From IMG/VR virus record IMGVR_UViG_3300050015_001120, positions 1 to 27,338 of that record: 27,338 bases of DNA; one strand, 5' to 3'. Within the stretch, counting starts at the first letter, position 1; every line of letters starts with the position of its first letter. Under the pieces are notes generated by a model, which had not been told where the DNA came from, ran no database searches, and was given only the letters and a program-made list of their open reading frames with translations. A program made the translations under genes and the position numbers. Below are positions 3,814-22,238 of this stretch, piece by piece. Source of the DNA: a virus.

Positions 3814-4404
3814 ATGAAGATAAAAAAACTCACAACTTCAAAGATGTCTTTCGAAACCGAACAGCAATACACGGCTTGGCTTTTGTATTGCGAAGCCGGC
3901 AGTATTCAGAAGACGCTGAAGCTGTGGGACAGGGTTGGGCAAAGCGGGGGTGAAATGGGGGTGGAATTCGCCGGCAGGCTGGGCAAAAAGCCAAGCGACA
4001 CAACGGTAGAGCGATGGTCGAAAAAATATCGCTGGGTTGATCGCAAAGATATAAAACTAACTGAAGATTTGGAAATTCTGCGCAAAAAGGCGCAGGAAAT
4101 CAAGGAAAGGAAAGTTTATTTTATCGCCGAGATGTTCTGGGATAAATTGCAAACGATAAAACGGCAAATGAAAAAAGGCGAAGTGGCCACCATCGATGAG
4201 CTGAAAAAGCTTTGGGAGATGCTTCGCACCGAATTCGGGGAATCGTTGGGCAAGCACGACCTCAACATCAGAGAAGAAGACCAAAGTCCGCCGACTCCCG
4301 AAGAAGACGAACTCGGCCGGGAGATCGACGAAACCATCAAAGATTTTTATGGACGAAAAGCAAAAGGAGAAAAGCAGCATTCTGTATTGGATAAGAAAGA
4401 ATAA
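3814..4404 (+). CDS. terS: Putative terminase small subunit
   Basis: A 196-residue, helical, highly charged protein, assigned mainly by position directly upstream of and overlapping (56 bp) the terminase large subunit. Residues 10-75 look like a DNA-binding HTH segment ('SIQKTLKLWDRVG', then 'SDTTVERWSKKYRWVDR', the W-S-x-x-x-x-W pattern common in small terminases that recognise pac or cos). The middle is a long amphipathic helix likely to oligomerise, and the C-terminus is acidic. I start it at the ATG at 3814, 2 bp after the previous stop; an in-frame extension to 3760 would overlap the methyltransferase. There is no Shine-Dalgarno sequence ('gtttaaaaATG'). Expected role: ring-forming DNA recognition subunit of the packaging motor. 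Confidence 0.7.
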   Translation: MKIKKLTTSKMSFETEQQYTAWLLYCEAGSIQKTLKLWDRVGQSGGEMGVEFAGRLGKKPSDTTVERWSKKYRWVDRKDIKLTEDLEILRKKAQEIKERKVYFIAEMFWDKLQTIKRQMKKGEVATIDELKKLWEMLRTEFGESLGKHDLNIREEDQSPPTPEEDELGREIDETIKDFYGRKAKGEKQHSVLDKKE

Positions 4405-6206: not shown

Positions 6207-7433
6207 ATGCAATATTTAAACAATCGCAAAACTTTGATCGCGGCATTTCTTATCCTGGCGTTGTTCGCCGGTTTGGGGATTTATTCTTCGAGCCTGTTTT
6301 CAAAGCATTCCCAGCCGGTTCCCGAGACGAATCTTCCTTCGAGTGCCGCCCTGAATCAAAAAACTGATTCCGCGACAACAACCGAAGTGGAAATTACGTC
6401 TCAAAAGGAAACGCCGTCAGTTTCAGATAAGCCCGCCGAAATCGCAAAACCGGATGAACCAACCCCCGTTGTTTCAAAGCCAGTGCAAAAATCTCAAACT
6501 TCCGATACTCCGGCGCAAAAACCGCAGAACACCGATCCGGTAGCCATAGCTTCTCCGATGGAAACGGAACGATTCGCGGTGCCGCCGGAAGCGAACGCAA
6601 TCGATCAAGTCGCCGACAGTCTCGCCGAGCAAGGATTCATCAAAAACAAAGATGCGTTTAAAATCGCATTCACCTCAAAGGAGCTAACGATCAATCCGGG
6701 CGGGTACAAACTTTCCAAAGAAATGAGTGTGTCTCAAATCGCGGAAGCGTTGCGCCAAAAGCCTTATATGAAATGGGTCGTGATCCCCGAAGGTCTTCGC
6801 AAAGAAGAGATCGCGGCTCTTCTTTGCGACGCTCTCGGGTGGACGCAAAATCAAAAAAACCTCTGGATCACCACTTACACCAAAATGAAATTCGACAATA
6901 TCGAAGGTGTTTATTTTCCCGATACTTACCTGATACCGGTCGATGAATCTCCGATTGACGTTGCAAGCAGGCTGATCGCAAAATTCAATGAAAAATTCGC
7001 GGTGTATCTTCCCGAATTCAATTCCCAAAATATTAAATGGACAACAGGATTGACCTTGGCTTCGATAGTCCAAAGGGAAGCGGCCAACGATGCCGAGATG
7101 CCCTTGATCGCCGGCATTCTCTGGAATCGCTTGAATCAAAGCATGGCGCTGAATGTCGACGCGACGCTTCAGTATGTCCGCGGCGATATCGGCAACGGCT
7201 GGTGGGCTCCGATAACCGTCGCCGACAAACAAACCGAGTCGCCCTACAACACTTATAAAAACAAAGGTTTGCCTCCGCATCCGATCTGCAACCCGGGGAT
7301 TCCCGCCATCGAAGCGGTTCTGACTCCCGCCCAAACCGACTGCTTGTACTACCTTCACGGCAAAGACGGCCAAGTCCACTGCTCCAAGACCTACGAAGAA
7401 CATCAGGAAAACATAGAGCAGTATTTAAAGTGA
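6207..7433 (+). CDS. mltG: MltG-type endolytic murein transglycosylase
   Basis: A 408-residue YceG/MltG protein that cleaves nascent glycan strands at the membrane. Residues 10-29 are a single N-terminal transmembrane anchor ('FLILALFAGLGIYSSSLF'). A Pro/Thr/Ser/Lys-rich spacer (about 30-120), a LysM-like segment (about 121-180) and the catalytic domain follow. Catalytic Glu291 lies in 'LASIVQREA', with the family signatures 'GILWNRLNQSMALNVDATLQ' and 'YNTYKNKGLPPHPICNPG'. The ending 'TDCLYYLHGKDGQVHC...TYEEH' resembles, from memory, MltG proteins of Patescibacteria rather than E. coli MltG. All core residues are present. This is a host-type cell-wall enzyme in an unusual place, between terminase and portal. 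It could assist lysis, entry or envelope remodelling. The start 'aaaaaagcATG' has no Shine-Dalgarno sequence. Confidence 0.93.
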   Translation: MQYLNNRKTLIAAFLILALFAGLGIYSSSLFSKHSQPVPETNLPSSAALNQKTDSATTTEVEITSQKETPSVSDKPAEIAKPDEPTPVVSKPVQKSQTSDTPAQKPQNTDPVAIASPMETERFAVPPEANAIDQVADSLAEQGFIKNKDAFKIAFTSKELTINPGGYKLSKEMSVSQIAEALRQKPYMKWVVIPEGLRKEEIAALLCDALGWTQNQKNLWITTYTKMKFDNIEGVYFPDTYLIPVDESPIDVASRLIAKFNEKFAVYLPEFNSQNIKWTTGLTLASIVQREAANDAEMPLIAGILWNRLNQSMALNVDATLQYVRGDIGNGWWAPITVADKQTESPYNTYKNKGLPPHPICNPGIPAIEAVLTPAQTDCLYYLHGKDGQVHCSKTYEEHQENIEQYLK

Positions 7434-7441
7434 AATCCTTA

Positions 7442-7485
7442 CAAATCGGCGGAGCGAAGGTTGGTTCACTCCGCCGGAGGGATTT
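7442..7485 (+). other. Strong RNA hairpin between mltG and next gene
   Basis: A perfect 8-bp stem CGGCGGAG (7447-7454) / CTCCGCCG (7469-7476) with a 14-nt loop, extended by AAATC (7442-7446) / GATTT (7481-7485) around a GAGG bulge. No T-run follows, so it is not a standard terminator. It lies 2 nt upstream of the AAAGGTCG octamer and could be an mRNA processing or stability element. Confidence 0.55.
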
Positions 7486-7487
7486 GC

Positions 7488-7495
7488 AAAGGTCG
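7488..7495 (+). promoter_or_regulatory. AAAGGTCG octamer upstream of secreted-protein gene
   Basis: The octamer AAAGGTCG lies 49 nt before the ATG at 7545, right after a strong hairpin and before an extremely A-rich leader (7496-7544) with no Shine-Dalgarno sequence. The same octamer recurs in the leaders at 13748, 14624, 15951 and 16438, and shortly before the start at 13147. Its function is unknown; promoter element, RNA processing site or translation element are all possible. Confidence 0.5.
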
Positions 7496-7544
7496 AAAAA
7501 AATAAAAGTCGTAAAACAATTAAGCAAAATAAAACAAACAATTT

Positions 7545-8339
7545 ATGAAAAAACATTTTATTATTGCGAGTTTAGGTTTGGCGGTTTGTTTGGCGGTCGG
7601 CATAGGAATAACCTACGCCAGCCAGGCGCTCACCAAGCAGGACGAGGTGGCGCTCAAGCAAGCGATGAAACCGGAAGTTCCCGCCGGGGAGCGGATGGTC
7701 GATATGGTGGGGGTCTTCCCGCCGCAGTTTGAATCGGATGCCGACGCGCAAATTAAGGCATACGATAAAGAATTCGGGAAAGACAATGTCCAAGTCTTAA
7801 ATTACCAAGCCTACACGATTATCGTTCCGCCCGGGAAAACCGCCGAAGCCGATAAAGCGAAGCAAAGGATCGATGCCAACATAAAATCGCAGCAGTCTGC
7901 GATTCCGCAACAAGGTATCCAGCAAAGGGATATCGACAGAATCAAGGAAGTGTTTGGAACGCAGGATGCCAGCTACGATTCTACGATTGGAGCTTATGTC
8001 GACGAAAGCGGAAACCAGTATAACTTTGTCAAAGGCGAGCTGGTCAACAAGCAAGTCGGCGCGACTCCGGCGTTGCAACAAAAGTGGGAGAAAAAATATC
8101 CTCACTTGAACGGTTCGTCAGTCGCACAGGCTGTCGTCACCGAAGAGCAGGCCGAAGATAAAGCCGGCAAATTGTTGGACAAATTGTTCAGCGTTGAACG
8201 GGCGGGTGAACTCAAGACGAAAGTCGAAGCGACTTTAATCGACGACAAGCTGACGGGAATCGTTTATGGAGACAACGAAGCGAGTTTTTTGGTCGACAAG
8301 GTTACAGGTGACATAATTGCCTACAGTAAAATAAAATAA
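7545..8339 (+). CDS. Secreted or membrane-anchored protein, PepSY-like C-terminus
   Basis: A 264-residue exported protein. An N-terminal signal or anchor (residues 2-26: 'KKHFIIASLGLAVCLAVGIG', then 'ITYASQA') is followed by a soluble, charged, Gln-rich domain. The last 60 residues ('AEDKAGKLLDKLFSV', 'LTGIVYGDNEASFLVDKVTG', 'DIIAYSKIK') have the rhythm of a PepSY-type domain: helix, strands, then a terminal 'VDKVTGDII' strand. PepSY domains are often inhibitory or protein-binding modules outside the membrane; the assignment here is tentative. Upstream are a hairpin, the AAAGGTCG octamer and a 49-nt A-rich leader without a Shine-Dalgarno sequence. It lies between MltG and another secreted protein, which suggests a common envelope role. 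Confidence 0.75.
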   Translation: MKKHFIIASLGLAVCLAVGIGITYASQALTKQDEVALKQAMKPEVPAGERMVDMVGVFPPQFESDADAQIKAYDKEFGKDNVQVLNYQAYTIIVPPGKTAEADKAKQRIDANIKSQQSAIPQQGIQQRDIDRIKEVFGTQDASYDSTIGAYVDESGNQYNFVKGELVNKQVGATPALQQKWEKKYPHLNGSSVAQAVVTEEQAEDKAGKLLDKLFSVERAGELKTKVEATLIDDKLTGIVYGDNEASFLVDKVTGDIIAYSKIK

Positions 8340-8344
8340 CCACC

Positions 8345-8890
8345 ATGAACAAAAAAAATTTTATCGCAGCGTTGCTTCTCGCGATGACAACGGTGTTCGT
8401 GGGGGCCAACGCAATGGCCGTGGATTGCCCTTACCTGCACGACTTCTGTCCCACGGGAGGCGGAGTACACGGCTGGTGGGCGACATTTACGCCCACGCAC
8501 CGATTGTGTTCCACGGATTACTACACATGGAACTCAACGAGCTACGGCAGCGAAGAGTCTTGGTATTTATCGGGTGCCATTTATCAGCTGTGCGGCCAGC
8601 AGATTCCCAATCTTGGCGGACCGTCAAGCTATGATAACGTCCTCGCCCGGGCTTATATTCCCTGGGCTCACGCAACCCAAACCCATTACGCGCATTACTA
8701 CGACTGGGAATCGGGGAGCACTTATTATTCGATTGGTTCGATTAATCAGTACGGCACGGCGGGCTGGGGTTATTTGGCGACGACCAACTGGGTCTGGATA
8801 GGCCAATTCAAGCTTTCCGACTGGACGAACGAAAGTTACGAGACCAAGACCGTGGATCTGGACAGTTACTCGGTGGATTGTCCTACCTAA
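8345..8890 (+). CDS. Secreted Trp/Tyr-rich Cys-containing protein
   Basis: A 181-residue protein with a clear Sec signal peptide (basic 'NKKN', hydrophobic 'FIAALLLAMTTVFVGANAMA', cleavage likely before 'VDCP'). The mature part is very rich in Trp, Tyr, Ser and Gly and has five cysteines, including 'VDCP' near both ends, so disulphides outside the cytoplasm are likely. The order 'YDNVLARAYIPW', 'THYAHYYDWESG', 'YGTAGWGYLATTNWVWIGQF' suggests an all-beta sugar- or wall-binding fold similar to golvesin/Xly-type domains, but this is a weak resemblance. It begins 5 bp after the previous stop ('aaccaccATG', no Shine-Dalgarno sequence) and is the last gene before a strong terminator. Role unknown: surface modification, superinfection exclusion and wall binding are all possible. 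Confidence 0.7.
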   Translation: MNKKNFIAALLLAMTTVFVGANAMAVDCPYLHDFCPTGGGVHGWWATFTPTHRLCSTDYYTWNSTSYGSEESWYLSGAIYQLCGQQIPNLGGPSSYDNVLARAYIPWAHATQTHYAHYYDWESGSTYYSIGSINQYGTAGWGYLATTNWVWIGQFKLSDWTNESYETKTVDLDSYSVDCPT

Positions 8891-8920
8891 CAAAGCCGCA
8901 AGCAGAACGCAACCAACCGC

Positions 8921-8949
8921 AAAACCTCTCCCAACCAAGAGGTTTTTTG
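8921..8949 (+). terminator. Rho-independent terminator after exported-protein cluster
   Basis: A perfect 9-bp stem, AAAACCTCT (8921-8929) / AGAGGTTTT (8938-8946), with an 8-nt loop and a T-run (8943-8948). It lies 30 nt after the stop of the secreted protein and separates the phage operon from the accessory cassette. Confidence 0.85.
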
Positions 8950-8997
8950 TTTGGAATTCAATTTGACTATATGGATAAGAAAATGCTTTATTAAAAC

Positions 8998-9041
8998 ATC
9001 AAGGGCAGAAGCTCCGCCAACCCGGAACTGAAGCCCTTGAT
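8998..9041 (+). other. Hairpin at left edge of accessory cassette
   Basis: A perfect 9-bp stem ATCAAGGGC (8998-9006) / GCCCTTGAT (9033-9041). The 26-nt loop can itself pair TCCG/CGGA around CCAACC. A weak promoter-like TTGACT (8963-8968) lies upstream. On the minus strand the stem is followed by GTTTTAAT, so it may be a terminator read leftward; on the plus strand the T-tract is weak. It could also be a short regulatory leader. The rest of 8891-9056 shows no gene. Confidence 0.45.
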
Positions 9042-9056
9042 TTCGTTTGCTGAAAT

Positions 9057-9085
9057 TTGACAAGAACGAATAATGGTGATATGGT
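9057..9085 (+). promoter_or_regulatory. Sigma70-like promoter for NUDIX-like gene
   Basis: TTGACA (9057-9062), 17-bp spacer, TATGGT (9080-9085). It is directly upstream of an AGGAGG Shine-Dalgarno sequence (9098-9103) and the TTG start at 9111, giving a very short leader. This argues against translation starting at the upstream in-frame TTG (9057) or ATG (9081). Confidence 0.7.
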
Positions 9086-9110
9086 ATATAATAAAATAGG
9101 AGGCAAGAAA

Positions 9111-9692
9111 TTGGCTAAAGATATAGTGGTGCTTCCCGAAAAGAATCTTGGGAAGGTTAAGGAATTGGTGGAGAAAAAACATCAAGTCGCAGCAACAATA
9201 GGATTGTTTGTTGCTCCCATACGTGTAACGGGAGATCGTGTCGAAGTCCTTGTTAGGAGAAGGACCGCAAAGGATTCCCTGTACGATGTTGATTTATCGG
9301 GGAAGAACGAGGCTATCGGAGGTGCTCAGTCATATAAAGACCTCACTAATGGCTACTTCGCTTCGATAATTGGTACTCTTTGCAGGGAGGCTATGGAAGA
9401 GGCTGGCTTAGACCTTTCAAACTGGAATCCTGGATTCCCCCTCGTCATGCTTCCGGCGCAACTGAGTAAGGAAGACGGAATGAATGATTTTGCCTTCATT
9501 GTGCCAATGAAGTGGAGCGATGACTATGGGACGCAGGTGTACTCTAATAAGCTGGCCAGCGGAGCAGTAAACTGGTATGGAGAAGACGATCTGACTAATC
9601 TTAACAAGCCAGTGGTATCTCTTCGTACCCGAGTCCTGCTTCTTCAAGCCATAGAGTACGTTCATATGGTAGAAGCGAAATACCCTTCTTGA
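9111..9692 (+). CDS. NUDIX-like hydrolase
   Basis: A 193-residue protein with the second half of a NUDIX box intact ('REAMEEAGLDL', matching R-E-U-x-E-E-x-G-U), preceded by 'AIGGAQSYKD' and about 15 extra residues where the standard G-x5-E part should lie. The catalytic glutamates binding Mg are therefore present, but the box is stretched or degenerate. NUDIX enzymes hydrolyse nucleoside diphosphate derivatives; the substrate cannot be predicted. The TTG start is chosen because a perfect AGGAGG lies 7 nt upstream; the in-frame ATG at 9081 lies inside the promoter. It has its own promoter and a long hairpin overlapping its stop codon. Frequent AGG/AGA arginine codons and the strong SD differ from the surrounding phage genes, consistent with a separately acquired cargo gene. 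Confidence 0.75.
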   Translation: MAKDIVVLPEKNLGKVKELVEKKHQVAATIGLFVAPIRVTGDRVEVLVRRRTAKDSLYDVDLSGKNEAIGGAQSYKDLTNGYFASIIGTLCREAMEEAGLDLSNWNPGFPLVMLPAQLSKEDGMNDFAFIVPMKWSDDYGTQVYSNKLASGAVNWYGEDDLTNLNKPVVSLRTRVLLLQAIEYVHMVEAKYPS

Positions 9693-9751
9693 GGCATTTC
9701 TAAATGAATCATCTATTTTTTTGATGTTCAAATGGAAATGCCTTTTAATTT
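9692..9751 (+). terminator. Long imperfect hairpin terminator after NUDIX-like gene
   Basis: AGGCATTTC (9692-9700) pairs perfectly with GAAATGCCT (9735-9743). Inner pairing continues imperfectly (ATGAA...CATC with GATG...TTCAAAT) around a T-rich loop, and TTTAATTT follows. The stem begins on the last base of the stop codon. It probably insulates the NUDIX-like gene from the promoter that follows. Confidence 0.65.
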
Positions 9752-9759
9752 ATAAAACC

Positions 9760-9788
9760 TTGACAACGTTTAATAACTATAGGATACT
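9760..9788 (+). promoter_or_regulatory. Sigma70-like promoter for the overlapping ORF pair
   Basis: TTGACA (9760-9765), 17-bp spacer, GATACT (9783-9788). A Shine-Dalgarno sequence GAGGTGA (9816-9822) lies 6 nt before the ATG at 9829. Confidence 0.75.
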
Positions 9789-9828
9789 TTCAGGAGCAAG
9801 ATTTTCTTGTAAATTGAGGTGAGATAGT

Positions 9829-10068
9829 ATGCCGTATGTGGTAAATTCAGAAGGGGCAACTCGGGAAATGGTCGAGCATCAGGACCTTAAGGGAACAGCG
9901 TTGGAGCTGATGAATAGGATCGGCCTATTGGACGAAGGAAGCGATGGAGAAGATCTCTCTTGGCTCTGTGATGCCATTATAAGAAAGTATGGCCCCGTGG
10001 AAAGCTTGATAACAACTCTTGCGACAAAAAAGCCATGGAAAGGGATGATGGCGAGCTGTTGGCAATAA
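9829..10068 (+). CDS. Hypothetical protein, possible upstream part of a frameshifted product
   Basis: A 79-residue acidic, helical protein ('TALELMNRIGLLDEGSDGED', 'LSWLCDAIIRKYGPVESLIT') with an excellent promoter and a GAGGTGA Shine-Dalgarno sequence. No family recognised. Its 3' end overlaps the next ORF by 34 nt, and the frame relation is -1. Codons 66-68 read ACA AAA AAG, so they contain A_AAA_AAG (10026-10032), the classic dnaX-type -1 slippery heptamer in the correct phase. Slippage would join residues 1-68 to the next ORF to make about 217 residues; without it, translation ends 12 codons later. An indel splitting one gene is the alternative explanation. Confidence 0.65.
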   Translation: MPYVVNSEGATREMVEHQDLKGTALELMNRIGLLDEGSDGEDLSWLCDAIIRKYGPVESLITTLATKKPWKGMMASCWQ

Positions 10069-10081
10069 CCGCAAAGCTTGC
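10026..10081 (+). promoter_or_regulatory. Candidate -1 ribosomal frameshift site
   Basis: A_AAA_AAG at 10026-10032 is in the zero frame of the upstream ORF, and the -1 frame is open from there into the downstream ORF. A possible stimulatory stem GCGAGCT (10051-10057) / AGCTTGC (10075-10081, one G-U) lies 18 nt downstream, farther than the usual 5-9 nt. No clear Shine-Dalgarno-like stimulator was seen upstream. The heptamer phase is the strong part of the evidence; the stimulators are weak. Confidence 0.45.
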
Positions 10082-10481
10082 AAAGGCATTATATGTGCCT
10101 GCGGGAGCAAGTATGGCTAAAAAGAAAGAGCCAGGGATACACAAGGATTTCGTGACCGCCGTAGTCCAAGTGGTGTTGTTCCACTGCTCTATTCCGAAGA
10201 ATGCAAGCACCACTCTCGCGGACTCTGTCAGAGCGGGATACAAGGGGATCAGCGATGAATCCGCCGCCAAGTTCTTTATATTTGAATGGATCAAGGATGG
10301 ATCGGCAACAAGCAAAGAAGCGCGCAAAGAAGTGCTCGCCGGCAATTATGCAGGCGCTTGGAAATTTGCCAACACTTGGCTCGGGAAATTTGGCTATGAG
10401 CGAGCTGTGCCGGAGGAAATATCGCTTAGCGATACCAGCTATGCAACCATAATCAGCGAACGGCCGGTAGAAGAAAGGTGA
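10035..10481 (+). CDS. Hypothetical protein, possible downstream part of a frameshifted product
   Basis: A 148-residue protein not recognised as any family. It has a basic segment ('MAKKKEPGIHKDF' from residue 27), a hydrophobic strand or helix ('VTAVVQVVLFHC'), and a helical C-terminal half with aromatic residues ('AAKFFIFEWIKDG', 'YAGAWKFANTWLGKFGYER'). The first ATG (10035) has no Shine-Dalgarno sequence, which is out of character in this cassette. The ATG at 10113 has GGGAG 5 nt upstream and is a reasonable independent start. Alternatively it is expressed as the second half of a -1 frameshift product with the preceding ORF. Its stop codon lies within a Rho-independent terminator. Confidence 0.65.
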   Translation: MERDDGELLAITAKLAKALYVPAGASMAKKKEPGIHKDFVTAVVQVVLFHCSIPKNASTTLADSVRAGYKGISDESAAKFFIFEWIKDGSATSKEARKEVLAGNYAGAWKFANTWLGKFGYERAVPEEISLSDTSYATIISERPVEER

Positions 10482-10502
10482 GCAAATCCACCTTTTTATT
10501 TT
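10474..10502 (+). terminator. Rho-independent terminator overlapping stop codon
   Basis: A perfect 7-bp stem AAAGGTG (10474-10480) / CACCTTT (10489-10495) with an 8-nt loop, followed by TTATTTTT. The TGA stop of the preceding ORF (10479-10481) is part of the stem. Confidence 0.85.
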
Positions 10503-10516
10503 TGGATGCGATGCTA

Positions 10517-10545
10517 TTGATAACCTTTTTTGTTTTGTGTATTAT
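10517..10545 (+). promoter_or_regulatory. Sigma70-like promoter, upstream of a pair
   Basis: TTGATA (10517-10522), 17-bp spacer, TATTAT (10540-10545). It lies 71 bp upstream of a second, stronger promoter serving the same short ORF. Confidence 0.55.
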
Positions 10546-10578
10546 CTATCCATAATCTATTTTTAAACAGTTCTTTGG

Positions 10579-10616
10579 GCGTCATAGTTGACAAAAATCA
10601 AAATATGACGCATAAT
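10579..10616 (+). promoter_or_regulatory. Sigma70-like promoter with overlapping operator-like inverted repeat
   Basis: The promoter is TTGACA (10588-10593), 17-bp spacer, CATAAT (10611-10616). A perfect 8-bp inverted repeat GCGTCATA (10579-10586) / TATGACGC (10604-10611), with half-sites 25 bp apart, brackets the -35 and reaches the -10. This is the layout of a repressor operator. The binding protein is unknown. The spacer also contains AAAATCAAAATAT (10594-10606), repeated at the next promoter. Confidence 0.7.
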
Positions 10617-10636
10617 TGAAATGGAGGAATTGATGA

Positions 10637-10792
10637 ATGAAGCAACTCGGAAAATATCACCTATGCGAAGGGATAAACAAGAAACGCGCCAAATGGGAGC
10701 CAAGACTGCTCTATAGTTTTATCACAGGGACTATCTGCATTGACCCCACGTTCGTTCCGGGCGCTTTGATAGATGAATCCGTAACCGTCTAA
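10637..10792 (+). CDS. Small 51-residue protein under operator-like promoter
   Basis: A short ORF with a GGAGG Shine-Dalgarno sequence (10623-10627) 9 nt before its ATG, a strong promoter just upstream and a perfect terminator downstream (10822-10860), so it forms a complete monocistronic unit. The product has a basic N-terminal part ('MKQLGKYHLCEGINKKRAKW') and a more hydrophobic C-terminal part ('LLYSFITGTICIDPTFVPGA') with two cysteines. No family recognised. An overlapping 27-residue ORF from ATG 10633 (stop 10714-10716) has SD spacing of 5 nt and is an alternative use of the same SD. The transcript could also act as an RNA. Confidence 0.5.
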   Translation: MKQLGKYHLCEGINKKRAKWEPRLLYSFITGTICIDPTFVPGALIDESVTV

Positions 10793-10821
10793 TTGCTTTC
10801 ACTTATGGGCTTTATGCCTGC

Positions 10822-10861
10822 CTCTCGAACTTACTTTTCCCATAGTTCGAGAGTTTTTTTA
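10822..10861 (+). terminator. Rho-independent terminator after 51-residue ORF
   Basis: A perfect 10-bp stem CTCTCGAACT (10822-10831) / AGTTCGAGAG (10844-10853), with a 12-nt loop and T7 (10854-10860). An alternative pairing TATGGG (10804-10809) / CCCATA (10839-10844) would compete with its base, so conditional read-through is conceivable. Confidence 0.9.
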
Positions 10862-10879
10862 TTGCGATTGTTTGAATTA

Positions 10880-10907
10880 TTGACATCAGAACAGGACTTG
10901 CTAAAAT
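10880..10907 (+). promoter_or_regulatory. Sigma70-like promoter for candidate structured RNA
   Basis: TTGACA (10880-10885), 16-bp spacer, TAAAAT (10902-10907). The 13-mer AAAATCAAAATAT (10903-10915), shared with the 10588 promoter, overlaps the -10 and the probable start of transcription. Confidence 0.65.
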
Positions 10908-10913
10908 CAAAAT

Positions 10914-11041
10914 ATCAGACAGTATAGCTTGACGGCGTTCCGATTTCGGAACTAAAAGTTACGGGGCTACGACTTCTGTCATCAACAGCCGTTTTACGCG
11001 GCGAAGATTGATGGCTGAAGTGGTAGCCCTTTTTTGTTTTA
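10914..11041 (+). ncRNA. Candidate structured small RNA or portal-gene leader
   Basis: About 120 nt between a promoter and a U-tailed terminator, with no ORF. Stem 1 is GTTCCG / CGGAAC with an ATTT loop (about 10938-10953). A large composite hairpin follows: GGGCTAC, ACTTC, CATCAA and GCCG pair in order with CGGC, TTGATG, GAAGT and GTAGCCC (about 10965-11029), ending in TTTTTTG. It matches no RNA family I can name. The portal ATG lies only about 20 nt beyond the T-run, so it is either an independent small RNA or a conditional leader controlling the structural operon. Confidence 0.55.
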
Positions 11042-11054
11042 TTCACCCCAACAT

Positions 11055-12920
11055 ATGGCGGAAATAACGGTTAATCAAATTGATCAAAATAAAACTCCGC
11101 CAAGCGAGGTCTATTCTCCCGATGCCGCGGAGCGGGCGCTTGTTGAAAAATGGAAAAAGCGATTCACTCGCGCCGACAATTTCCTGCGGCCTTACCGCGC
11201 CAAGTGGCTGCGGATGTACAAGCTCTACCGCGCTTATCAGGAAAAAACGAATTACGCGTATCAGACGCGCTTGATGCCGCCAATCGCTTTTGAAATTATC
11301 GAAACCGTGGCTTCGCGCCTGGCCACGGCAAAGCGCAAAACCCGCATCTTGCCGCGCAATAAAAAAGACGCAATTTCAAAATCGATTCAATCATGGGACG
11401 ACCTCGTGAATTACGATTTCGACACGGTGAAGATTGGAAAAAAACTGCCCAAATGGCTCAAGTCGTCGACGATGTACGGCAACGGCCTTGCCAAAGTAAC
11501 CTGGCTTACCGATTCCAGCATTGACTACGACGATCCGTTTCTTACCATCTGCGACCTATGGGACATCTTGATTGCGCCCGAAACCGAAGATTTGCACGAA
11601 GATTGTCCTTGGCTGATACATCGGATATTAAAATCAAAAGATCGGATCGAGCGGGAAGAGAAAGCCCGCGGCAACGACGCGATTTACAAAAATCTGAATT
11701 TCGTCGAGGCCAAGCAAGCCGATGATTGGAAAAAAGAACGATACGACGTGAATCTGAAAAAGATGGGTCAAATTCAAAGCGTCGAGGCCCAGGGAAGCGA
11801 AGGCGCGGTCATTAAAGTTTCGGATGATAAATACGAGCGGGAAAAACAAGTGGAGCTGTGGGAGTGCTGGGATTACGAAGAAGGCAAACTCGTTACCATC
11901 GCCAATAAAGAAGTTTTGATAAGAAACGATGACAATCCTTATCAAAGGGTAAACAGCGGCCGGATTTTCATAAACCTGCCCGATCACGAACTCAATTGGG
12001 AATTCTGGGCCGTGGGTCATATCGAGCCCGTCGAAACCACGATTGTGGAAATCGCGGATCTGCGCAACCAGCGGATGGACGATGTGATTCTCATGCTCGA
12101 CCCGGTGATAAAAATCCGCAAGGATTCGGGGATTTCGAAAAACGATATCATTTTCGCTCCCGGGGCGAAATGGGAACTGCGCAAAATGGACGATGTGCTG
12201 GTGGAGCGTTTGCCAGACATTAGCTTGATGGGAACCGATGAAGAGAAAGCTCTCCGCGATGAAATCGAAAGAACGCTGGCGATCTCGGAATATGTCCAAG
12301 GAATGCCCAAGTCCGCCCAAGAACCGCTGGGCAAAGTGGAAATGCTTATCGGCCAAACCAATCTCCGATTAAGTTCGCTGTCGCAAAATCTTTCAGAATC
12401 ATTGACCCAGCTGGCGAATATTCTTGTGGAAATGAACCGCGAGTTTATCGGCCAAAACAAATTGTACCGGCTGGTCGGCGATGATGTCGGTTTCAAAGAA
12501 TTCACCACTGACGACAAGGAAGTGAAGGTTGACGCGGTGGTGCAGGTTGACCCGATAGTGCCGCCGGATCAGGAAACGCGCTTGAACCAAGCATTCCTTC
12601 TCTACGACAAATTCGTCGCCGAAGACAAACCCGATCCGGCCAACCCAATCGAAACCGCGCAATGGCGGAAGCGCAAGCGATTCATTCAAGAAATGATTCT
12701 GGAGGAGCTTGGCAAAGAAGCGTACAAAGCGGTGATTTTAGGAGAATCTGAAAACATTGCGGCGGAAACAAATATCGCGCCTCAAGCGAATCCGGCTCCG
12801 TCGCCGCAAATCGTAGCTCCGCAACCGCCACCCTCGGCGGAATCAAATCAACAGCCGGGATTCCTCGGGAAAATCCTTTCCAAAATTCCATTTATCGGGC
12901 AGGGTCAATCACCGGTTTAA
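11055..12920 (+). CDS. Portal protein (P22-like)
   Basis: A 621-residue protein that would form the dodecameric ring at the capsid vertex. The N-terminal region ('FTRADNFLRPYRAKWLRMYK', 'YRAYQEKTNYAYQTRLMPP') is the helical start typical of P22/T7-type portals. The wing and stem region includes 'STMYGNGLAKVTW', 'FLTICDLWDILIAPE' and 'PVETTIVEIADLRNQRMDDV' leading into 'MLDPVIKIR', a common portal signature. The C-terminal 60 residues are Pro/Gln/Ala-rich and end in a short hydrophobic helix. The length is close to but shorter than P22 gp1 (725 residues). I start at ATG 11055 ('caacatATG', no Shine-Dalgarno sequence); an in-frame TTG at 11034 lies in the terminator T-run. It is the first gene of the structural operon. 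Confidence 0.88.
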   Translation: MAEITVNQIDQNKTPPSEVYSPDAAERALVEKWKKRFTRADNFLRPYRAKWLRMYKLYRAYQEKTNYAYQTRLMPPIAFEIIETVASRLATAKRKTRILPRNKKDAISKSIQSWDDLVNYDFDTVKIGKKLPKWLKSSTMYGNGLAKVTWLTDSSIDYDDPFLTICDLWDILIAPETEDLHEDCPWLIHRILKSKDRIEREEKARGNDAIYKNLNFVEAKQADDWKKERYDVNLKKMGQIQSVEAQGSEGAVIKVSDDKYEREKQVELWECWDYEEGKLVTIANKEVLIRNDDNPYQRVNSGRIFINLPDHELNWEFWAVGHIEPVETTIVEIADLRNQRMDDVILMLDPVIKIRKDSGISKNDIIFAPGAKWELRKMDDVLVERLPDISLMGTDEEKALRDEIERTLAISEYVQGMPKSAQEPLGKVEMLIGQTNLRLSSLSQNLSESLTQLANILVEMNREFIGQNKLYRLVGDDVGFKEFTTDDKEVKVDAVVQVDPIVPPDQETRLNQAFLLYDKFVAEDKPDPANPIETAQWRKRKRFIQEMILEELGKEAYKAVILGESENIAAETNIAPQANPAPSPQIVAPQPPPSAESNQQPGFLGKILSKIPFIGQGQSPV

Positions 12921-12933
12921 TTTCAAAACATTT

Positions 12934-13134
12934 ATGGCAAAAAGCAATTCAACGATAAAAACCGCAAAAGTGAAAGCGATGAGCAAGACGCTCAGCGGAA
13001 GCGATTGCATCGTGTCGTTCCAAGAAGACCAAGGACGGGTTCACACTCTTTATTTAAGCAAAGAAGAATCGTCCGCGATTGATTTGGGCGACACCATTCA
13101 GATCATTATCGCAAAGGTCGATATAACCCAATAA
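12934..13134 (+). CDS. Small hypothetical beta-rich protein
   Basis: A 66-residue protein. A basic N-terminus ('KSNSTIKTAKVKAMSKTL') is followed by alternating strand-like segments ('DCIVSFQEDQGRVHTLYL', 'GDTIQIIIAKVDITQ'), suggesting a small beta barrel. No family recognised. It sits 13 bp after the portal gene and 12 bp before the next gene, starts 'catttATG' without a Shine-Dalgarno sequence, and its end contains the AAAGGTCG octamer (13113-13120), 26 nt upstream of the next start. Confidence 0.6.
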   Translation: MAKSNSTIKTAKVKAMSKTLSGSDCIVSFQEDQGRVHTLYLSKEESSAIDLGDTIQIIIAKVDITQ

Positions 13135-13146
13135 CCAAAATTTTAT

Positions 13147-13461
13147 ATGACAGAACAGCAATTGAAAAATGATCCGGGTGGAAACGATGCGCAAAAAATA
13201 GGTTTCAAGAAAATGGATGCAAACCAACCTGCCCAGTCCGACGATCAATGGAAAAAGGTCGAAGACATTGTGACCGCGGCCAAAGATGCATATGTTTCCG
13301 GCCAATCCGATTTTCGCAATGTTATCGAAACCATGGTTTCCACTCTTCAGGATTTGCTGGCGAGCGAACAGGGTGGGCCGCAGATGGGCGGGCTTGGCAT
13401 CGGTGCGCCTCAAATGGACATTTCCGAAGGGGAAGCACCCGCCGGAAACCAGCCACAATAA
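13147..13461 (+). CDS. Small hypothetical structural-operon protein
   Basis: A 104-residue protein with a hydrophilic N-terminus, an amphipathic helical centre ('VEDIVTAAKDAYVSGQSDFR' continuing to 'LASEQ') and a Gly/Pro/Met-rich tail ('GGPQMGGLGIGAPQM'). The 'MGGLGI' string recurs at the very end of the scaffold-like protein (14605-14622), a small shared C-terminal feature within this operon. Position between portal and scaffold suggests a head-assembly accessory role; no family recognised. The start context 'ttatATG' is preceded by AAAGGTCG. Confidence 0.6.
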   Translation: MTEQQLKNDPGGNDAQKIGFKKMDANQPAQSDDQWKKVEDIVTAAKDAYVSGQSDFRNVIETMVSTLQDLLASEQGGPQMGGLGIGAPQMDISEGEAPAGNQPQ

Positions 13462-13466
13462 TCGTT

Positions 13467-13748
13467 ATGCCGCAAACCAACGAAGAAAAACTGGATGCGG
13501 GGCTTGCCGTTCTGGAAATGTCCAGAACGAGAGGCTGGAAATGGCTCGAGGAGCGGATTCAAACCGAGCTTCGCATCGAGTACGTCGAGCTTCGCGAGTT
13601 TGAAGTTTCCGGTAAAACTGCCGAACAGATCGCCGCGGAATATCTCCAACATCGGGCGGCGGTAAATTCTTACGAAAAAATTATGGGAATGGTTGTCGCC
13701 GCCATCAATGAAAAAGACGAAGCGGCCGAAGCGATGAATCGCGAATAA
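13467..13748 (+). CDS. Small helical structural-operon protein
   Basis: A 93-residue, almost wholly helical and acidic protein ('EEKLDAGLAVLEMSRTRGWK', 'WLEERIQTELR', 'TAEQIAAEYLQHRAAVNSYE'). I begin at ATG 13467, 5 bp after the previous stop; in-frame codons continue upstream to 13248 but only overlap the previous gene. No family recognised. It ends in a small GCGA-TGAA-TCGC hairpin (13731-13742) just before the AAAGGTCG octamer that leads into the scaffold-like gene. Confidence 0.65.
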   Translation: MPQTNEEKLDAGLAVLEMSRTRGWKWLEERIQTELRIEYVELREFEVSGKTAEQIAAEYLQHRAAVNSYEKIMGMVVAAINEKDEAAEAMNRE

Positions 13749-13755
13749 AAGGTCG
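13748..13755 (+). promoter_or_regulatory. AAAGGTCG octamer before scaffold-like gene
   Basis: AAAGGTCG begins on the last base of the preceding TAA stop, 27 nt before ATG 13783. The intervening leader is made almost only of A and T, with no Shine-Dalgarno sequence. Confidence 0.5.
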
Positions 13756-13782
13756 AAGAAATAAAAAATAAAACAATATTTT

Positions 13783-14625
13783 ATGAAAGAAGAAAGAACA
13801 AAAGAAATTGGCAACATTTTAAAAAATCCTCCCGAGCCCGAAGGGGATGAGAAGGAATTAGAGAAAAAAGAAGCTGATGCCAAAGACGGAAAGGCGGCTG
13901 AAAATAAGCCACCGATCAAGCAAGAAGCTGGCGAAGAGAATAAGTCCGCCGTCGAAAACGATGAGGATGAGGAATCATCCGAAGAAGATGAGGAGTCCGG
14001 GAGCGATGAATCCGAAGAAGACGACCGATGGCGCGGCAAGACCCGCGAGGAAGTGATCCGCATGTTCGAGGAGATCGAAAAAAAGAATAAGCCGGATAAT
14101 CTGCCCAAGCCTCCGGCGAAAGAAGAGGACAAACCGGATAAGGAAAATGAATTTGGAGTTCCCAGCGACGAAGAGCTTGCCAAAATGACTCCCAAGCAAT
14201 TCGCCCAGTGGATGATGGATAATGTCAAAAACATCGTCGGGAAAACCTACGACGCGCGAAACCAGATAAGAGATTCGGTGGCGCAAGAAATCAGGGAAAC
14301 GCAAAAAGATCATCCTCTTTTGAGAACCAGCGCCGAGTACCGGGAACTTGTGCTCGCCGTGATTGAATCCGCTTCCCAAAAGGGGGTGATGATGCCGCTC
14401 AAAGAAGCCTGCGCCAAGGTCGACGCGTTCGCCGGGAAAGTTCAGGGCGACACCAAAGTTTCCGATGACGAGGCGGTGCGCCTCAAAAAAGCCAAAGCGC
14501 AAGTTGAAAAGGGGGCGGGCGCTCCGATTTCGCCGGGCGAAGAGAAAGGCGACGAAGTCCGCCGTCTTGAAGGAATCTTCGGATCGGGCGGGACGAAAAG
14601 CCCGATGGGAGGGCTTGGAATATAA
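13783..14625 (+). CDS. Putative capsid scaffolding protein
   Basis: A 280-residue, strongly acidic, low-complexity protein placed directly before the major capsid gene, the usual place for a scaffold. Residues 1-100 are an E/D/K-rich disordered segment with a run of mixed E, D and S near residues 55-80. The middle holds helices ('SDEELAKMTPKQFAQWMMDN', 'DARNQIRDSVAQEIRETQ') and the end a charged helix plus Gly-rich tail ('SPMGGLGI'). Scaffolds have little sequence conservation, so the call rests on composition, length and position. The leader carries AAAGGTCG and is A-rich. The last codons contain a hairpin ATCGGGC/GCCCGAT (14583-14606). Confidence 0.7.
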   Translation: MKEERTKEIGNILKNPPEPEGDEKELEKKEADAKDGKAAENKPPIKQEAGEENKSAVENDEDEESSEEDEESGSDESEEDDRWRGKTREEVIRMFEEIEKKNKPDNLPKPPAKEEDKPDKENEFGVPSDEELAKMTPKQFAQWMMDNVKNIVGKTYDARNQIRDSVAQEIRETQKDHPLLRTSAEYRELVLAVIESASQKGVMMPLKEACAKVDAFAGKVQGDTKVSDDEAVRLKKAKAQVEKGAGAPISPGEEKGDEVRRLEGIFGSGGTKSPMGGLGI

Positions 14626-14631
14626 AGGTCG
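14624..14631 (+). promoter_or_regulatory. AAAGGTCG octamer before major capsid gene
   Basis: AAAGGTCG overlaps the TAA stop of the scaffold-like gene and lies 39 nt before ATG 14671, 17 nt after a 7-bp hairpin (14583-14606). The leader to the ATG is A-rich and has no Shine-Dalgarno sequence, although the capsid gene should be the most heavily translated one. Confidence 0.5.
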
Positions 14632-14670
14632 GACTTCCCAAAGAAAAAATAATTAATAAAAACACGCAAT

Positions 14671-15849
14671 ATGTCTTCAACAACTGGAATCAGAGGATCG
14701 TCGAACTTGGGCGTTACGCGCAAGTACGACGTGGCCGATGTTATTTCTCTTCTTGATGTCGAGCGTTATCCGCTTTTGGCGATTTTAACCAACGCGGGCA
14801 AAGACCTTGTTTCCAAACAGGGCAAATCGCTCAAGAAGAAAGAAACGACCGACCCCGAATTTAAATGGTTCGAGGATAAATTCGGAGCGCGCGAAGATAC
14901 GGTGTCGGCGGATCAAAGCGTCGCGACGACTTTGCCCGCGACCAACGGGGCGTACTTCAGCCCCGGCGATGTCATTTTGGTGGTTAAATCCACTCAAGCG
15001 ACCGGCAATCCGACAGGCGAAGTTTTATTGGTCGCGAGCATTGCCGGCAACAATTTGACGGTCGTGCGCCAGATCGGCGACAGCGGGTCGGGGGGCGGTC
15101 TTTTGAAACAAAATGACATCATCTGGATCATCGGCAACGCCAATGAAGAGGGTGCGGATCTGCGGACGATCAAAGCGACGACCGTCGCGGATGTGACGAA
15201 TTACTGCCAAATCTTTCGCACGCCCGTTGGTATCACTGAAACCGCGCGCAACACTAAAGGATGGATCAAAGAAGCTGATTTTGACTACCAAACCCGCAAA
15301 AAGGGAATCGAGCATTTGATAGATATCGAACGAGCCTTTATGTTCGGCAAAAAAGAGATCATCACTTCCGGCAGCCAGCCCAAGCGTTTCACCGGCGGCA
15401 TTTTCCAAAAAATCACGCAGGTGGCGAGTAATGTTTCCACGCGGGCCGATTTCAACAGCTACCTGGAAACGCTGTTCAAGCATGGCAACGCCGAAAAATA
15501 TCTTCTGGCATCTCCGTATGTGGTGAGTAAAGTTAATGAGTTCGCGATGGACAAGCTCCAGATTATGCAGGGAGCCAACACTTTCGGACTCACGGTGATC
15601 AAATATCTTTCGCCGCACGGCACGCTCAACATCATCAAACACGATTTGCTTACGGGTGATCTATACGGCAAATGCGCCGCGGGCATTGATATGGAAACGC
15701 TGACCTACCGGTATCTTGCCAGCCGCGACACCAAACTGCTTACAAACCGGCAGAATAACGGCGAAGATTCCCGCGTCGACGAATATCTCACCGAATGCGG
15801 TCTTCAATTCGAACAGGCAGAAAGACACGCGGTGGTGAAATTCGCTTAA
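14671..15849 (+). CDS. Major capsid protein (SU10/DUF5309-like)
   Basis: A 392-residue protein with features of the SU10-type HK97-fold capsid proteins: N-terminal 'DVADVISLLDVERYPLLAIL', a substrate loop region 'FKWFEDKFGAREDT', a beta domain with 'YFSPGDVILVVKSTQATGNP', then 'TNYCQIFRTPVGITETARNT', 'DYQTRKKGIEHLIDIERAFM' and the later 'TFGLTVIKYLSPHGTLNII'. The pattern 'NYCQIFRTPVGITETAR' followed by a long helix ending in 'DIERAFMFGKK' is especially typical of the family. Length is normal. It follows the scaffold-like gene and precedes small capsid-associated genes. An AAAGGTCG octamer stands upstream, and two hairpins occupy the 3' region. Confidence 0.88.
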   Translation: MSSTTGIRGSSNLGVTRKYDVADVISLLDVERYPLLAILTNAGKDLVSKQGKSLKKKETTDPEFKWFEDKFGAREDTVSADQSVATTLPATNGAYFSPGDVILVVKSTQATGNPTGEVLLVASIAGNNLTVVRQIGDSGSGGGLLKQNDIIWIIGNANEEGADLRTIKATTVADVTNYCQIFRTPVGITETARNTKGWIKEADFDYQTRKKGIEHLIDIERAFMFGKKEIITSGSQPKRFTGGIFQKITQVASNVSTRADFNSYLETLFKHGNAEKYLLASPYVVSKVNEFAMDKLQIMQGANTFGLTVIKYLSPHGTLNIIKHDLLTGDLYGKCAAGIDMETLTYRYLASRDTKLLTNRQNNGEDSRVDEYLTECGLQFEQAERHAVVKFA

Positions 15850-15875
15850 GCGGTTTTAGACAATCCTTCAAGTTT

Positions 15876-15937
15876 CGGTCGGACGGCAAGCTTTCCCAAC
15901 CCGCCTGACCGGATGGAAAGCCCTTGAGGGGTTTTCC
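15876..15937 (+). other. Two hairpins downstream of major capsid gene
   Basis: The first is an imperfect 11-bp stem CGGTCGGACGG (15876-15886) / CCGCCTGACCG (15901-15911). The second is GGAAAGCCC (15915-15923) / GGGGTTTTCC (15928-15937) with a TTGA loop. No T-run follows, so they are more likely mRNA 3'-end stabilisers or processing signals than complete terminators. They are followed at 15951 by AAAGGTCG, repeating the hairpin-then-octamer order seen at 7442-7495. Confidence 0.5.
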
Positions 15938-15950
15938 GCGGGTGAATCAT

Positions 15951-15958
15951 AAAGGTCG
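15951..15958 (+). promoter_or_regulatory. AAAGGTCG octamer before the post-capsid gene
   Basis: AAAGGTCG lies 34 nt before ATG 15993, in the 143-nt gap after the major capsid gene and 13 nt beyond the second hairpin. No Shine-Dalgarno sequence precedes the ATG ('taatgatATG'). Confidence 0.5.
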
Positions 15959-15992
15959 GCCCGCGGCGCAAACAAAATTTAACATTAATGAT

Positions 15993-16424
15993 ATGGCAAA
16001 TACGCAAACAATTGAAAAACCGAAAACAAAAAGCAAGCGCTACGCGACGCGCTTCGGACAGCATTACAGCATAGTGATGCTTCCAACGACAACCGAGATA
16101 GTCAACGGCTTGCCGATTACCAAGCAGGGCAAACGACTGGAATTTAAAAACGGAATTTATGAAACGGATGATCTTCAAGAGCAGGCGTTTTTGGAAGGGT
16201 CGGAATATTACGGAGTTGATTATCAGGAGGTCACCAAAGAAGTCAGCTCCGCCCTTCAGGCTAAATCGATCGCCGAAAAAGAAGCGGAACTGAAAACCAA
16301 GGAAGAAGATTTGAAACGCCGCGAAATGGCTCTTAAGGGAAAAGAAGAGGGCGGCGAATCTTCTTCGGAAAATGAACCGGAAGAGGCCGGAAAAACGGAC
16401 AAGAAGAAAGAACCAAAATTCTGA
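15993..16424 (+). CDS. Hypothetical capsid-module protein with coiled coil
   Basis: A 143-residue protein. The N-terminal part is basic, then beta-like ('RFGQHYSIVMLPTTTEIVNG', 'KRLEFKNGIYETDDLQEQAF'). Residues about 85-120 form a charged coiled coil ('AEKEAELKTKEEDLKRREMA') and the C-terminal tail is disordered and K/E/S-rich. This layout resembles short proteins located after capsid genes that close or connect the head, but no family is recognised. I use ATG 15993; in-frame codons upstream to 15924 fall in the hairpin-containing leader. It ends in TGA and is followed by another AAAGGTCG leader. Confidence 0.65.
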   Translation: MANTQTIEKPKTKSKRYATRFGQHYSIVMLPTTTEIVNGLPITKQGKRLEFKNGIYETDDLQEQAFLEGSEYYGVDYQEVTKEVSSALQAKSIAEKEAELKTKEEDLKRREMALKGKEEGGESSSENEPEEAGKTDKKKEPKF

Positions 16425-16437
16425 ATGATGATTAATG

Positions 16438-16445
16438 AAAGGTCG
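16438..16445 (+). promoter_or_regulatory. AAAGGTCG octamer before decoration-like gene
   Basis: AAAGGTCG lies 29 nt before ATG 16475. The leader is A/T-rich (including TTAATTAATTTTAAA) and lacks a Shine-Dalgarno sequence. Confidence 0.5.
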
Positions 16446-16474: not shown

Positions 16475-16768
16475 ATGGCGGTAGAAAGCAGACCAGGATT
16501 TGCCGTTGGCGAGGCGACGGTTGCGGGCGCGGGAACGCCGATTCAGCTTCCCGACATCAAAGTCGGCCAGGCGTGCGAACTGGTGGTTAAAGCCAAAAAA
16601 ACCAACCAAGGAGCGATTAAAGTCGGACAGTCTTCAAGCGAAGCCTTGGCCGGAAAATTCAATATGGAACCCGGCGAAGCGATCAAGCTTCGCGTGAGCA
16701 ATGCCAACAAAGCGTGGATCGATGCCGAAACAAGCGGCGACAAAGTCGAAATCATCACCGAACAGTAA
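16475..16768 (+). CDS. Small beta-sandwich protein, possible capsid decoration protein
   Basis: A 97-residue, beta-rich protein. The succession 'GQACELVVKAKKTNQGAIKV', 'FNMEPGEAIKLRV' and 'KAWIDAETSGDKVEIITE' matches the general pattern of small phage head-associated beta domains (a 'vkA...N.G.i.VG' strand pair, then 'L.pGe...l.V' and a final 'gdkV.ii' strand), which I know from many virion gene clusters as decoration or unannotated proteins. Position two genes after the capsid supports a capsid-surface role. It has its own AAAGGTCG leader, as does the capsid gene, consistent with high expression. Function inferred. Confidence 0.65.
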   Translation: MAVESRPGFAVGEATVAGAGTPIQLPDIKVGQACELVVKAKKTNQGAIKVGQSSSEALAGKFNMEPGEAIKLRVSNANKAWIDAETSGDKVEIITEQ

Positions 16769-21106: not shown

Positions 21107-22234
21107 ATGAGCGGAATAATTGATAAAATCTTCGGGAATAAAGTTGTTGACGATTCTCCGTTTCCGGAAATCCCGATTCATACCCACGACGGCCAGAATT
21201 CCCCGATGCTGGCGCCTCAATCAATCGATTCGATGCAGATTAAAACCGGAGCCGTCGGCGACAGCCAGTTGATGGATCTGTCGGTCACCGAGCAAAAGCT
21301 TGCGGATTTGGCGGTGGCCACCCAGAAAATAAGAGACGACGCGATTACCTCGGCAAAAGTTTACAAGGCGGGATCGGTTATCACTTTATCCGCCCAGATT
21401 GCCGAAGCGATCATCGCCACGGCGCACATCCAGGATTTGGCGGTCAAATGGGCGAAAATCGGCAATCTTGAAGTCGGTAACAGCAAAATAATGAATCTGG
21501 CCGTCAGTACTGGCAAAATTCAGGATTTAGCCGTGGAGTGGGCCAAAATCGGGGATTTAACGGTTGGAAACAGCAAGATAATGAACGCGGCCATCACCAA
21601 TGCCAAGATTGCGGATTTGGCGGTCGACAACGCCAAAATCTCGTACCTTAGCGCCGATAAAATCATCGTGGGCGTGCTTCAGGGAATTACCGTCAGAACC
21701 GGTCAAACTTCGGGAGGATATGTGGCCATGGAAACCGGCGGTTCGTACCCTCACAGCTTCGCGGTTTACGCCGCCGGCGGAATGTATGTTGGCAGGATGA
21801 CCTATGTGGGCGGCGCGCTGGCTTTGGTCGCGATGGGCGATATGGAAGTGAATGCCGGAGCGATATTGCCATACCAAAATAATGTTGTTGATCTGGGGAG
21901 CTCGTCGCTGAAATTCAATTCCATTTATAGGACAAATGAATTTTCCTGTCCGCTGCCGACTTCCAATTCAGCCATCGGCGTTTTCAAAAAAATTAAAAAG
22001 CCGCAGGTTGACAGCGGAGATTTCGGGGAAAGGCATTATTTCAAAGTCGAAGATTTTCCCGCGGAGATGAAGGCCACGGCAAAGAATGTTGAAAAAGCCA
22101 ACGGAAAAATTGAAGAGATTGAAGACATCGAACTTACCCGGGCACTGGGCGTTACTGTGCAGGCGGTGCGGGAGCTTATCGAAAAGTCCGATGATTTCGA
22201 GCAAAGAATCGCGGCGGTTGAAAATAAAAAATAA
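21107..22234 (+). CDS. Tail fibre protein
   Basis: A 375-residue fibre-like protein. An N-terminal attachment segment ('IPIHTHDGQNSPMLAPQSID') precedes a shaft of short pseudo-repeats of the type 'AKIxDLAVxxxKI', including a nearly exact 30-residue (90-nt) tandem repeat starting at 21428 and 21518. A Gly-rich beta region and the fibre tip motif 'NNVVDLGSSSLKFNSIY' follow, then a charged C-terminal part ending in a coiled coil ('VRELIEKSDDFEQRIAAVEN'). 'VDLGSSSLKFNSIY' is widespread in phage fibres, often just before a peptidase_S74-type chaperone, which is reduced or absent here. Probably a trimeric receptor-binding or connecting fibre. I start at ATG 21107, 4 bp after the propeller gene; the in-frame codons upstream overlap that gene. 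Confidence 0.85.
   Translation: MSGIIDKIFGNKVVDDSPFPEIPIHTHDGQNSPMLAPQSIDSMQIKTGAVGDSQLMDLSVTEQKLADLAVATQKIRDDAITSAKVYKAGSVITLSAQIAEAIIATAHIQDLAVKWAKIGNLEVGNSKIMNLAVSTGKIQDLAVEWAKIGDLTVGNSKIMNAAITNAKIADLAVDNAKISYLSADKIIVGVLQGITVRTGQTSGGYVAMETGGSYPHSFAVYAAGGMYVGRMTYVGGALALVAMGDMEVNAGAILPYQNNVVDLGSSSLKFNSIYRTNEFSCPLPTSNSAIGVFKKIKKPQVDSGDFGERHYFKVEDFPAEMKATAKNVEKANGKIEEIEDIELTRALGVTVQAVRELIEKSDDFEQRIAAVENKK
21428..21607 (+). repeat. Two 90-nt tandem units in tail-fibre shaft
   Basis: Units starting at 21428 and 21518 share most positions at protein level: 'IQDLAVxWAKIGxLxVGNSK', then 'IMN'. The DNA differs mainly at third codon positions, so the duplication is old and selected at protein level. 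Weaker 10-15-residue repeats flank it. Confidence 0.75.
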
Positions 22235-22238
22235 TAAA

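Follow-up and report, generated by a model that had tools for sequence, protein, structure and literature searches.

Introduction

To our knowledge, almost nothing is known about the control of gene expression in Patescibacteria and their phages. Among the described systems that come closest to the one reported here, the late promoters of phage T4 consist of an octamer only, TATAAATA, which stands alone before many late genes, and CsrA-type sites present a GGA in a loop. The strong sites of the T4 RegB/S1 system, GG*AGRAYARAA, are intergenic and must be unpaired; they are a short purine-rich leader word with an A-rich stretch after it (PMC3014915). T4 RegA is a single phage protein that acts on many A-rich, unstructured leaders (PMC3014915).

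The viral octamer that we describe here, AAAGGTCG, shares something with each of these systems. Like the T4 late promoters it is a lone octamer before many genes, but it has a G/C core and a fixed distance to the ATG, and no common phage sigma factor was found. As with CsrA-type sites, a short GG word is single-stranded or lies in a hairpin loop, but it reads GGU and not GGA, and no CsrA was seen. Compared with the RegB/S1 sites, the word is GGUCG instead of GGAG, the genes are structural, and the distance to the start is ~30 nt, against 8 nt. The sites of RegA reach up to or into the AUG; the octamer is situated ahead of the region that the ribosome covers, and its core is strict. Finally, its AAAGG could pair with the CCTTT of the 16S tail, and a sister clade has a Shine-Dalgarno sequence at the same genes; the octamer, however, is 23–49 nt away from the start, its invariant TCG is unpairable, and the core of relatives lacks the AAA. 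No published description of AAAGGTCG as a leader word was found in the literature searched, which included Patescibacteria phage promoters and Shine-Dalgarno use.

Results

The window, that is, the whole stretch of DNA analysed, comprises 27,338 bases and is a complete virus record of IMG/VR. It contains nine copies of AAAGGTCG on the + strand, starting at 2696, 7488, 13113, 13254, 13748, 14624, 15951, 16438 and 26672, and none on the - strand, exactly the count that an earlier note, made by eye, had given. Dinucleotide shuffles predict 1.26 copies on both strands together, and 0 of 100 reach nine; a third-order Markov model predicts 0.92 per + strand, with a maximum of 5 among 300. In an unsupervised ranking of 8-mers, AAAGGTCG is the most over-represented in the window and also in L004 and L008, and the top 9-mer of the window and eight relatives is AAAGGTCGA, seen 42 times where 2.2 were expected. 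The enrichment also holds when the codons of the genes are shuffled synonymously, the comparison for which the note had asked: 0.38 copies are expected and at most 2 occur in 200 shuffles, against four coding copies including that at 13113.

Intergenic DNA totals only 2,263 bases in the window. Six of the nine copies are of leader type and lie 26–49 nt before an ATG, namely those of an exported protein (octamer at 7488–7495, gene at 7545–8339, gap 49 nt), of gene 13147–13461 (13113–13120, gap 26 nt), of a scaffold-like gene (13748–13755, gene at 13783–14625, gap 27 nt), of the major capsid gene, mcp (14624–14631, gene at 14671–15849, gap 39 nt), of the gene after mcp (15951–15958, gene at 15993–16424, gap 34 nt) and of gene 16475–16768 (16438–16445, gap 29 nt). 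These gaps are as previously noted, but the accompanying description of the copies as intergenic is only approximate, because those at 13748 and 14624 share bases with the end of the stop codon ahead of them, and that at 13113 belongs to the 3′-terminal part of the upstream gene (12934–13134). The three other copies, all on the + strand as well, are coding and head no leader: 2696–2703 in a ParB/N6-N4 methylase gene, 13254–13261 in gene 13147–13461 (WKKVE codons, also in G011) and 26672–26679 in gene 23593–26775 (codons also in G011). The window further contains a 90-base tandem direct repeat at 21428–21607, in the tail-region gene 21110–22234.

Capsid, portal and terminase searches yielded about 100 viral loci and twelve loci in bacterial genomes. 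Among 90 non-redundant octamer sites, 71 have an ATG reading frame 15–61 nt downstream (median 30, most within 23–49). At these 71 sites the octamer and the A that follows it are conserved and the bases upstream are not, and past the octamer the sequence switches abruptly to an A-rich, G-poor composition for ~30 nt. The downstream flanks do not fold significantly; the leader is A-rich and unstructured. About a third of the upstream flanks (34%, z < -2) do fold significantly, against 8–10% of coding and gene-end controls, which bears out the earlier remark that several copies follow a hairpin. These upstream structures vary from canonical terminators through hairpins without a U-run to an H-type pseudoknot after mcp. 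Intrinsic terminators lie 4–10 nt before octamers in G013 (3684), in L097 (13844) and, before the homologue of gene 16475–16768, in G014, G015 and G018; in the window, a hairpin without a U-run, CGGCGGAG..CTCCGCCG, stands just upstream of the 7488 octamer (7447–7476, + strand, z -5.0; z -8.5 in the near-identical L062). The leaders are indeed free of Shine-Dalgarno sequences, which occur at 4.6% of starts in octamer phages and at 4.8% in shuffles. In G013 (L141, reversed coordinates 1991 and 2002) two tandem octamers lie 11 nt apart, and a start codon at the usual distance is absent.

At some leaders the octamer itself is part of a structure. Folding of the window places the mcp-leader octamer in the loop of a hairpin at 14606–14640 (+ strand), and in 11 phages the mcp-leader hairpin with the core in its loop has 98.7% of its cells paired. 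All seven pairs of the stem show changes on both sides, and its covariation score is 0.97 against at most 0.31 when slid. The arms were aligned by hand, since MAFFT had set them out of register, and they were picked as the best stems, which biases the score upward, although the shuffles support most of these stems. Of the mcp and khpA leaders, 11 of 17 have a significant core hairpin (shuffle test, p < 0.05), compared with only 8 of 71 plain octamer leaders. The khpA leaders of G011, L109, L108 and L099 have the core filling a seven-base hairpin loop, with an A-U/G-C swap in the stem among the four genomes. An RNA-level protein operator would show a core that is unpaired or in a loop, on a covarying stem; this is what the mcp and khpA leaders have, and plain leaders are mostly stemless. 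Cores presented by a hairpin often lack the AAA flank (AGTCGA, TGGTCG), suggesting that the fold substitutes for this flank.

Around the octamer of the gene after mcp, folding gives a hairpin, CCGCGGG..CCCGCGG, whose loop contains the octamer (15936–15966, + strand), and G011 and L119 have the same hairpin with a different stem. The H-type pseudoknot lies 5′ of this octamer at 15874–15921 on the + strand (S1 15874–15882/15905–15913, S2 15890–15896/15915–15921). Both of its stems are kept among phages in unrelated sequences; those of the window, G011–G015 and L018 beat all 60 shuffles, and equivalents in G016 and G018 were recognized by eye only.

The mcp 5′ leader also carries a conserved, structured-looking RNA, GGGTG..CCC-GACC..GATAATCYAAAA, which has no Rfam match. 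It was seen in L021 (9881–9960), L015, L019, L020, L023, L026, L007, L009 and L017 and furthermore in G013, G014–G016, G018, L018 and L097, and in distant relatives it begins just after a TGnTATAAT-like element; sequence-only alignment yielded no consensus fold for it. A LOOT RNA (RF03000, 79 bits) lies between terminase and portal in L001 (3685–3809) and L002 (5808–5932) and was not found in the window, where the curated Rfam models gave no match.

Phages that share 51–77% capsid identity retain the octamer, or else its core RGTCG, at orthologous junctions, before gene 13147–13461, the scaffold-like gene, mcp, the gene after mcp, gene 16475–16768, the gene at 22236 and khpA. Thus the search for the octamer before the same genes in related phages, which had been proposed as a check, found it there, and host chromosomes have it at a chance-like level. 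The 13113 octamer is at the same place in G011, L001 and L119, the homologues of the scaffold-like gene in G014, G015, G016, G018 and L018 are also preceded by an octamer, and in G018 so is the homologous exported gene (6203, gap 44 nt). The mcp leader has the core in G011, L108, G012, G014, G015, G016, G018, L018, L097, L007, L017 and L025, and CGTCGA in its place in G013; the distant relatives L007, L017, L021 and L025 have the core alone, at some leaders. Octamers that overlap the upstream gene are read in different frames (KGR, KVD), which argues that the nucleotides themselves are conserved.

A sister clade (L011–L014, L056, L068, L103) has neither octamer nor core, and at several of the same starts it has a Shine-Dalgarno sequence, GGAGGTGA. 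In junction gaps of 25–80 nt, octamer phages have the octamer or core in 26 of 37 cases and a Shine-Dalgarno sequence in 0 of 37, whereas the corresponding counts in the sister clade are 0 and 10 of 17. A candidate replacement octamer in the sister clade, CGTTATTA, seemed enriched but mostly reflected shared coding ancestry. As gene-content correlates of the octamer, an integrase and a basic protein of ~80 aa are rejected: both are absent from this clade, but neither was seen in the window either.

The lineage that carries the octamer consists of tailed phages of Patescibacteria, which are ultra-small bacteria. The titled bacterial loci belong to Moraniibacteriota, Doudnabacteria, Nomurabacteria, Daviesbacteria, Gottesmanbacteria and Shapirobacteria, all of them Patescibacteria, and some sit on contigs of 0.4–1.1 Mb, so that we regard this as a Patescibacteria phage lineage with prophages. 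Related prophages were found in Doudna-, Moranii-, Davies- and Shapirobacteria genomes, and six octamers of the prophage in a Doudnabacteria genome match those of L001 and L002 in order and spacing. In seven host genomes, prophage included, AAAGGTCGA occurs 30 and 26 times on the two strands, as by chance, and 0 of 207 host gene leaders examined have the octamer, which rules out a host-general signal. Shine-Dalgarno use in two host genomes is little above chance (11% vs 6% and 8% vs 4%). Leaders without a Shine-Dalgarno sequence are therefore host style, and the octamer is the phage's own. Viral contigs were also scanned with a broad DNA pattern, and among the matches listed few of the other loci had three or more copies.

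Most members of the lineage encode a KhpA-like KH protein (PF13083; found in G013, G016, G018, G011, G012, L099, L108, L109 and L010–L014), and in other bacteria KhpA is described as binding RNA (PMC12456014). In G011, G013, G016, G018, L099, L108 and L109 the octamer or core stands before khpA, which would fit autoregulation. The phage KhpA-like protein is only a candidate for a factor that would act on AAAGGUCGA RNA, and it would not be a specific reader, because khpA also occurs in the octamer-less clade, there behind a Shine-Dalgarno site. G013 encodes a small protein (L141, reversed coordinates 6991–7314) with a cysteine-rich N-terminus (CxC..CPIC) and a sigma70 region 4, whose gene ends right at an octamer.

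Discussion

AAAGGTCG is a real, conserved and lineage-specific phage leader element. The earlier note had left three readings of it, a phage-specific promoter element, an RNA processing site and a new translation signal; the phage-specific element stands, the promoter is weakened, and the two RNA readings cannot be told apart by sequence. We consider it probable that the octamer acts in RNA, as a translation or a processing signal. What the sequences establish is the enrichment, the conservation at orthologous junctions, the phage specificity, the spacing, the lack of Shine-Dalgarno and -10 sequences, the covariation of the hairpin and the separate upstream promoter; action in RNA, binding of a factor and an effect on translation are our inference. 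The reading that we favor, and to which we give close to an even chance, is that AAAGGTCG(A) is an mRNA element to which a trans-acting factor binds, and which thereby recruits or gates translation of the cistron. Within the structural operon, the octamer marks the 5′ boundary of the ~30-nt A-rich unstructured leader, ahead of genes that are neither overlapping nor nearly contiguous with the gene before them. The core, RGUCG, would be offered either unstructured, with the AAA flank and the following A, or in a hairpin loop, where the flank is dispensable. A trans-acting factor present in infected cells may then bind just upstream of the docking site of the 30S subunit and recruit or gate translation of the downstream cistron; the lineage would thus use the octamer where its sister clade uses a Shine-Dalgarno sequence. 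It is possible, although we hold it tentatively, that this amounts to a Shine-Dalgarno-independent initiation signal, a strict RNA word ~30 nt upstream of the start through which a phage-specified factor would recruit the ribosomes of Patescibacteria to phage mRNAs, in a host with little use for Shine-Dalgarno sequences. A conserved, lineage-wide word that alternates with the Shine-Dalgarno sequence between sister clades gives direct, testable access to how translation starts or mRNA matures in a large uncultured group, and the octamer flags phages of this lineage in metagenomes.

Alternatively, and in our view somewhat doubtfully, the octamer could be a compact phage-specific promoter, read as DNA by the host RNA polymerase with a phage sigma factor or activator and starting transcription a few bases downstream, in the manner of the T4 late promoters. 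The octamers lie on one strand only with A-rich DNA immediately downstream, G013 encodes the sigma70 region 4 protein, in distant relatives the host-type -10 of mcp seems by eye to yield as the core appears, and the terminators 4–10 nt ahead of several sites favor a new transcription start. However, terminator-like hairpins alone are not proof of a new start, because one also precedes the portal gene, which has no octamer. A sigma70-type promoter would have a -10 (and a -35 or TG) at a fixed distance, but there is no -10 enrichment on either side of the octamers and no conserved base at -45 to -2; the GGTCG core, rich in G and C, does not resemble a -10 element that melts, and the stems around the core covary although their sequences are not conserved. 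An A/T-only octamer with a phage sigma factor, as in T4-type late promoters, is not what is found either, the core being GGTCG and G013 being the one octamer phage with a sigma70 region 4 match at cut-off. For a T7-type promoter, which needs an encoded single-subunit RNA polymerase, the model PF00940 had no match in 10 records, which are fragments and in which a control search was also silent. An N4-like hairpin promoter is rejected because most octamers have no hairpin.

Furthermore, each of the seven octamer phages tested (window, G011, G013, G014, G015, G016 and G018) has a separate strong sigma70-type promoter (10–12 of 12) 113–235 nt ahead of the portal gene, so that the octamers of the structural region lie inside an operon. 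In the window it is TTGACA-16-TAAAAT with a TG before the -10 (10880–10907, + strand), and the portal gene (11055–12920, + strand, weak PHROG portal/adaptor matches) is the first gene after it. Only one strong promoter match lies near an octamer in these seven records (G015, 4276–4304). By eye, the distant relatives L007, L017 and L025 have a host-type -10 some 100 nt or further ahead of the mcp core, which is therefore probably transcribed there. At 10880–11055 of the window, and at this place in G011, G013–G016 and G018, the host-type promoter is followed in several phages by a terminator-like hairpin with a U-run directly before the portal ATG, and promoter and hairpin together look like a putative attenuator for the late operon. 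In the window, the accessory cassette before the portal gene includes a YceG/MltG-like transglycosylase gene (6207–7433), also found in G011, G014 and G015.

An RNA processing site, at which an endoribonuclease would cut at GGUCG, so that the upstream mRNA would end in a hairpin or pseudoknot and the downstream mRNA would gain a short unstructured 5′ leader, we consider unlikely. It would account for the hairpin, terminator or pseudoknot just 5′ of a third of the sites, well above the controls, and for the A-rich, unpaired 3′ side, and RegB, with its unpaired intergenic sites, offers a precedent (PMC3014915). The octamer shares the A-rich, unpaired 3′ side with the RegB/S1 sites but has GGTCG where these have GGAG/U, and RegB silences early genes by cutting within the Shine-Dalgarno sequence, not 30 nt before structural genes. 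Moreover, no nuclease was identified, and cleavage needs no spacing of 23–49 nt to the start codon.

That the word reflects only chance, codon usage or the common descent of some copies, for which the coding position of three of the nine copies might speak, has a negligible probability given the shuffle and Markov enrichment, the k-mer ranking, the junction counts, retention at 50–60% protein identity across genomes of 35–54% G+C, and the conservation at orthologous leaders, which already refutes it.

Pairing with the anti-Shine-Dalgarno sequence is rejected because the TCG is unable to pair and the distance to the start is not the 5–10 nt of a Shine-Dalgarno sequence; the 16S tail in L111, L113 and L114 is CCTCCTTT. 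The complement of the core, TCGACC, occurs in the 16S of L111 and L113, and elsewhere in that of L112, which is the level expected by chance. The 16S rRNA gene of the Doudnabacteria genome G007:C1 (L115, L117) is in several pieces, as though insertions had broken it up.
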